Positions 7,087 to 7,252 of a DNA stretch of 7,504 bases are shown piece by piece. Positions within the stretch are counted from its first letter, which is position 1, and every line of letters begins with the position of its first letter. Both the position numbers and the translations under genes were made by a program. The notes beneath the pieces are model-generated. The model saw nothing but the letters and a program-made list of their open reading frames with translations. It searched no databases and was not told the origin of the DNA. The stretch is from an uncultured Lysobacteraceae bacterium. GTDB lineage: Bacteria > Pseudomonadota > Gammaproteobacteria > Xanthomonadales > Xanthomonadaceae. The stretch is taken from contig CAMLSB010000090.1 in NCBI GenBank assembly GCA_946482565.1, forward strand, positions 1 through 7,504, given 5' to 3'.

Positions 7087-7251
7087 ATGAAGGCCGACAT
7101 CCATCCCCAGTACCGCGAAGTCGTCTTCCAGGACGTCACTTCCGACTTCAAGTTCCTCACCCGCTCGACCATGGCCTCCAAGGAGACCGTGAAGTGGGAG
7201 GACGGCAACGAGTACCCGCTGATCAAGGTCGACATCTCGTCGGCGACGCAC
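7087..7251 (+). pseudogene. rpmE2: 50S ribosomal protein L31 type B, 5' part only, broken at a junction
   Basis: Residues 1-55 (MKADIHPQYREVVFQDVT, then KETVKWEDGNEYPLIKVDISSATH) are typical of type B L31. They lack the CxxC zinc motif of the type A paralogue, so this would be the zinc-independent version that binds the large ribosomal subunit and can replace the zinc-bound form under zinc limitation. The family normally continues HPFYTGK and ends near residue 80 with a basic tail. Here the sequence changes after His55 to GSSVASVAGKNRFPANP, with no L31 likeness, and the frame stays open to the end of the window. The change coincides with the truncation of a minus-strand gene, so the cause is a DNA junction rather than a frameshift. 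Whether the break exists in the living genome is unknown. Confidence 0.85.
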
Positions 7252-7252
7252 G
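7236..7252. other. Junction between two unrelated truncated genes
   Basis: Left of about 7251 the plus strand reads as rpmE2; right of it the minus strand reads as the start of a secreted protein. The bases 7236-7248 suit both genes: ISSAT of L31 on the plus strand and VADE of the secreted protein on the minus strand. The crossover is therefore within or at the edge of a stretch of apparent microhomology, most likely at 7249-7252. It may be a rearrangement breakpoint or an assembly or amplification chimera. Confidence 0.7.

Follow-up and report, generated by a model that had tools for sequence, protein, structure and literature searches.

Foreign DNA joined to a type B L31 gene in a probable metagenome contig is very probably a two-organism chimera

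The closest described parallels to the join reported here are the chimeric junctions that form while DNA is being amplified. In the available portion of the study by Lasken and Stockwell (2007; PMC1855051), in which the DNA of one E. coli cell was amplified with phi29, 3′ ends had primed at 2–21 complementary bases in more than 70% of the chimeric junctions of amplified DNA. The same portion gives complementarity in only 27.6–34.8% of the junctions joining segments more than 10 kb apart, which would be the nearer parallel to two organisms and would count against reading our locus as a chimera. For the ribosomal gene at the join, the excerpted text of a study of E. coli (PMC9825181) states that its authors avoided deleting rpmE owing to growth defects and also mentions cells without both L31 forms, indicating that loss of L31 is costly in E. 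coli and not lethal. The gene on the other side of the join belongs to an unnamed secreted family (P0005, P0007, and others) of about 290–317 aa, which has a signal peptide and the segment HGFAGKRFFPATLATDDPxVADE in common with the sequence analyzed here; neither Pfam nor NCBIfam gives a match for its full-length member P0007.

The stretch of DNA analyzed here (the window; 7,504 bases) resembles these amplification chimeras in its abrupt join and in shared sequence within 2–21 bases, and it differs from the phi29 system in joining two organisms rather than parts of one cell's genome. Compared with the type B L31 (bL31B, rpmE2) of Luteimonas-like bacteria, it has the same first 55 residues and the same gene neighbors as the closest sampled genome (G524), but its gene lacks the last third, and foreign DNA stands there instead. 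Unlike full-length members of the secreted family, it is limited to the first 48 residues or so, with Cys replacing Phe. We consider the stretch very probably a chimera of two organisms that arose in vitro or during assembly under the guidance of short homology and that is probably carried in a metagenome contig. Its end is most likely an artificial join and not a gene fusion or any other biological feature. The features of the window are as follows.

24..665, plus strand, host side: gmk, guanylate kinase (TIGR03263, 230.4 bits; cut-off 160.45)
759..1058, plus strand, host side: rpoZ, RNA polymerase omega subunit (TIGR00690, 71.7 bits; cut-off 23.6)
1239..3431, plus strand, host side: spoT/relA family gene (TIGR00691, 745.9 bits; cut-off 499.2)
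3441..3824, plus strand, host side: ridA, Rid family (TIGR00004, 160.7 bits; cut-off 106.25)
3863..5980, plus strand, host side: recG helicase (NF008163, 1036.7 bits; cut-off 796), the start codon at 3863 being our choice
6064..7005, plus strand, host side: nucleoside hydrolase (99% identical to P0241, 100% of the query covered)
7087..7251, plus strand: 5′ part of rpmE2, the gene for type B L31, containing the first 55 of its roughly 80 codons (NF002462)
7236..7248, no strand: 13-base tract CTCGTCGGCGACG, the core of the microhomology, identical in the window and in loci L053 and L001
7250..7251, no strand: switch point, the sequence being host-type through 7249 and donor-type from 7252
7252..7379, minus strand: 5′ end of the secreted-protein gene, covering the signal peptide and the beginning of the mature protein (similarity to P0001–P0005, P0004 included)
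7380..7504, minus strand: upstream region of the same donor gene, with an open frame over most of it, resembling the upstream sequence of relatives

Bases 1–7251 are best explained as ordinary chromosome of a Luteimonas-like bacterium. When 6064–7251 was searched in 247 sampled genomes of one family, matches were found in 246, the closest being G524 with 88% identity over all 1188 bases. The window from 1 to 7251 forms a single unbroken alignment with the corresponding locus of this genome (L093; 7280 columns, 87.0%), which spans gmk, rpoZ, spoT, ridA, recG, the nucleoside hydrolase, and type B L31 and stops at 7251. In L093, L31 runs to its stop codon and is followed by a frame that we read from its translation as citrate-synthase-like. 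One of the L31s identical to that of the window over its 55 residues (P0122) is labeled Luteimonas sp., as are several further L31s and hydrolases among those listed. Labels of such uncultured genomes conflict: P0140, labeled Rhodanobacter sp., is letter-identical to the L31 of G524 (L071), and near-identical L31s are labeled Luteimonas sp. Because of this Rhodanobacter label amid Luteimonas labels, "Luteimonas-like" is used here to mean a member of the Lysobacterales. The relative of the nucleoside hydrolase (P0241, representing 53 member sequences) is 327 aa long, the same length as a frame beginning at an upstream TTG at 6022. The gap between rpoZ and spoT contains an inverted repeat with 35-base arms (1063–1097 and 1186–1220; 86% complementary), one of them G-rich and the other C-rich.

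The first-pass annotation had placed the end of the type B L31 similarity after His55 (7249–7251), and the profile searches agree. Pfam Ribosomal_L31 covers residues 1–55, which correspond to positions 1–41 of the 65 in the profile, and the fragment exceeds the cut-off of the NCBIfam model for type B L31 (NF002462; 92.2 bits against 86) over 55 of 80 positions, so that the match is not complete to about residue 80. Four complete L31s (P0121–P0124), in 80- and 84-aa forms, are 100% identical across the 55 residues of the window. All 20 host relatives fetched (the best 20 of the 247 genomes) continue the protein with HPFYTG, and the continuous sequence of the window occurs in none of them. Pfam matches to LysR and to N-peptide fell below their cut-offs and were disregarded.

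Past His55 the plus-strand frame has no L31 similarity, yet no stop codon interrupts it between 7087 and the end of the window, and it encodes 139 residues. Such an open frame would be expected if some lineage conserved a natural fusion of the genes or a pair of overlapping genes, a reading that we regard as having almost no chance of being correct. It conflicts with the ordinary L31 end in 20 of 20 relatives, and among the 120 listed of 4106 protein matches there is no fused protein, none of them covering more than 48% of the fused frame. Moreover, the same antisense frame is found in an ENA protein (P0229) from a donor-like copy that lacks L31 and seems to be uninterrupted, so the plus-strand frame can be open with no fusion.

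On the minus strand, a gene starting with ATG at 7379 encodes an apparent signal peptide followed by the segment HGFAGKRFFPATLATDDPCVADE; the part of the secreted family that is present consists of the N-terminal signal peptide, judged by eye, and HGFAGKRFFPATL. The family match runs through VADE (7236–7247) and is then lost, the next roughly 240–270 residues being missing, which upholds the earlier proposal that this protein ends where L31 does and that two truncated genes meet tail to tail. The frame stays plausible back to 7236, across the shared tract. It had also been supposed that the family normally reads DDPFVADE; DPFVADE is present in 12 of 12 relatives compared and DDPFVADE in 10 of them, whereas the window has DPCVADE, its Cys arising because base 7249 is host-type.

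A search with the minus-strand segment returned 419 proteins, 120 of which are listed. The best five (P0001–P0005) are 90–94% identical over 94–98% of the queried 53 aa, and P0005, named Betaproteobacteria bacterium, is the nearest named relative. The minus-strand frame from 7496 aligns with residues 4–84 of P0004 (67 of 83 identical); this similarity extends upstream of the start codon, so most of 7252–7504 fits one donor. Genome contigs scanned with P0005 yielded 62 loci, the best eight of which are titled Betaproteobacteria, Burkholderiales, or Proteobacteria, and others include Verrucomicrobia, Rokuibacteriota, Alphaproteobacteria, Deltaproteobacteria, and one Gammaproteobacteria (L031). 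Since the family is spread over several phyla, the class of the donor rests on the nearest matches, which suggest that it was probably a betaproteobacterium, and one from soil to judge from the locus titles. At the DNA level, 7252–7504 matched two of six genomes, over 58 and 56 bases only, and the donor is thus known through relatives only. A genome holding a locus titled Ramlibacter ginsenosidimutans (L012; G006) matches the secreted family at three places, one of which covers query residues 6–47 only; the family can therefore be multicopy.

The secreted-protein gene was also sought in the family of the host, as the first-pass annotation had advised for related genomes. P0007 matched none of the 247 sampled genomes, whose completeness is unstated, and the same search recovered the family in five of five known carriers; G524, searched alongside these, had no match. 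A search with the nucleoside hydrolase of the window, conversely, gave no match in seven genomes that hold the secreted family, as expected. On this comparison of sequences, the two sides appear to derive from different lineages.

Diagnostic bases narrow the change between the two sides. For the donor side, 62 loci were read and 58 counted, the limit being 38 of 57 matches; L008, L020, L033, and L059 were left out. At 7249, the window and 20 of 20 host loci have C, and all 58 counted donor-side loci have A (as does L059; the matches of L008, L020, and L033 start at residue 106 or later). At 7252 and 7253, C is found in 20 of 20 host loci, while the window shares G with 58 of 58 donor-side loci. 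Between these positions, every one of the 78 loci has A at 7250; at 7251, C occurs in 15 of the 20 host loci and in 28 of the 58 on the donor side. With 7249 host-type and 7252 donor-type, the switch falls at the shared bases 7250–7251, within the interval of 7249–7252 proposed earlier. Farther upstream, base 7235 is T in the window, in 20 of 20 host loci, and in 6 of 58 donor-side loci. The join is sharp, with identity to G524, the nearest host relative, dropping from 21 of 25 bases at 7227–7251 to 5 of 25 at 7252–7276. P0229 agrees with these counts, reading SSATNGSSVAS against SSATHGSSVAS in the window, with Asn in place of His55 and likewise of Ile50. GC content is flat across the join (0.608 before, 0.616 after), a point against the chimera, and composition was consequently dropped as a test.

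The microhomology noted in the first-pass annotation is present and is longer than was described there. The window and a donor-side locus titled Casimicrobiaceae (L053) agree at 20 of 22 bases over 7230–7251, and their longest common exact word is the 13-base tract, from which most host relatives deviate at some positions. When the 22-base word of the window is placed along the 62 donor-side loci, only four of 969,316 placements score 20, and all 16 placements scoring at least 19 fall on the gene site of the secreted family. Coincidental similarity was considered and rejected: the 22-base word of L053 scores at most 17 over 14,416 placements on either strand of window bases 1–7229, and the 13-base word has one exact copy in the window. 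Near matches to the tract with up to two mismatches number seven in the window against a mean of 1.8 in shuffles; the word fits the composition of this genome, which weakens the homology argument and does not remove it. The shared sequence thus appears to be beyond chance, if somewhat less clearly so after the shuffles. That the join sits at a non-random place argues against blind ligation and for an event guided by pairing.

Short homology of this kind could also serve illegitimate recombination in a living cell, joining foreign DNA to L31 in a real rearrangement that would truncate both genes. This reading needs no transposon-like repeats, and none of at least 12 bases were found in 7000–7504, which is consistent with the earlier remark that transposon ends and target duplications are missing and led us to reject insertion of a mobile element with terminal inverted repeats or a target duplication of that length. 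Loss of L31 need not kill a cell either, given the E. coli cells without both forms mentioned in the available text of PMC9825181. Nevertheless, the ten best-matching relatives (whose genome completeness is unstated) each show a single L31 gene, the one that such a rearrangement would break, so the earlier suggestion that the organism, if the join were real, would be without an intact L31 is probably right. It would also bring in a family not found in the 247 sampled genomes of the family of the host; the foreign DNA visible amounts to only 253 bases before the window ends, the 120 listed of 4106 protein matches each reach at most 48% of the fused frame, and the exact junction 30-mer has no copy in genome_contigs or viral_contigs. 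The first-pass annotation had left the choice between rearrangement and chimera open; the differing lineages and the empty search of 247 genomes strongly favor the chimera, and rearrangement receives little support. We judge a real rearrangement very improbable, and slimmer still is the chance of its specific form, in which a Luteimonas-like host would have taken up betaproteobacterial DNA into its only L31 gene through the 13-base microhomology and would live with a truncated L31. Carriage by a plasmid or phage was rejected as well. Phages gave no match to 7150–7504, and the three plasmid records that match do so on the L31 part only; three further, more distant plasmid protein matches to the secreted family cover 50% of the query.

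Ordinary PCR, like phi29 amplification, can yield chimeras primed at short complementarity. In the chimera that we favor, synthesis of an L31 plus strand would have stopped near 7251 during library PCR or whole-genome amplification, after DNA extraction, and the incomplete strand would have annealed to donor DNA at a site where 20 of some 22 bases match. It would then have been extended on the donor, and the assembler would have taken the chimeric fragment into a contig. The host base kept at 7249 suggests that it was the L31 plus strand that was extended, its last two bases (AC) being paired with the donor. Just two paired bases at the 3′ end would make the opposite priming direction less expected.

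Had the assembler merged the two sequences through a lenient overlap, the product would be identical, and this case belongs to the same explanation. Taken as a pure assembler error, in which two contig ends were merged at a similar tract, this sub-case is a minority possibility that we hold with some doubt. The agreement of 20 of 22 bases at the join is in its favor. However, short-read assemblers usually use k of 21 or more, and the exact word common with L053, at only 13 bases, lies below this range, making a purely computational merge possible and harder to achieve. The merge would further require either that the overlap step was lenient or that the donor strain had C at 7249, a base that none of the 58 placed loci has there. 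Chimeric contigs are a known subject of the literature on metagenome assembly. An assembler error and a chimeric molecule are both artifacts, and the verdict on the stretch is the same.

The main value of a two-organism chimera at this place lies in caution. One should neither attribute the last 253 bases to this organism nor describe its L31 gene as truncated, and the 139-residue plus-strand frame should be kept from entering databases under the name of a fusion protein. Were the join real, transfer between distant bacteria would have cost the host its only L31 gene, a loss that would merit study.

Several relatives of the secreted protein carry irregular ends of their own. The terminal RSEERRVGKECRSRWSPYH of P0004 (residues 144–162) is identical to the translation of an Illumina adapter. 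Public protein sets contain such artifacts of the donor family. P0001 abruptly leaves the family sequence for a DUF488-like end (PF22751, 38.4 bits, residues 104–133), and P0006 does so for what we read as the start of an oxidoreductase, a stretch with no Pfam match. Divergent C-terminal tails occur, within the limits of our script, in 11 of the 120 listed relatives, which may be further chimeras or frameshifts.
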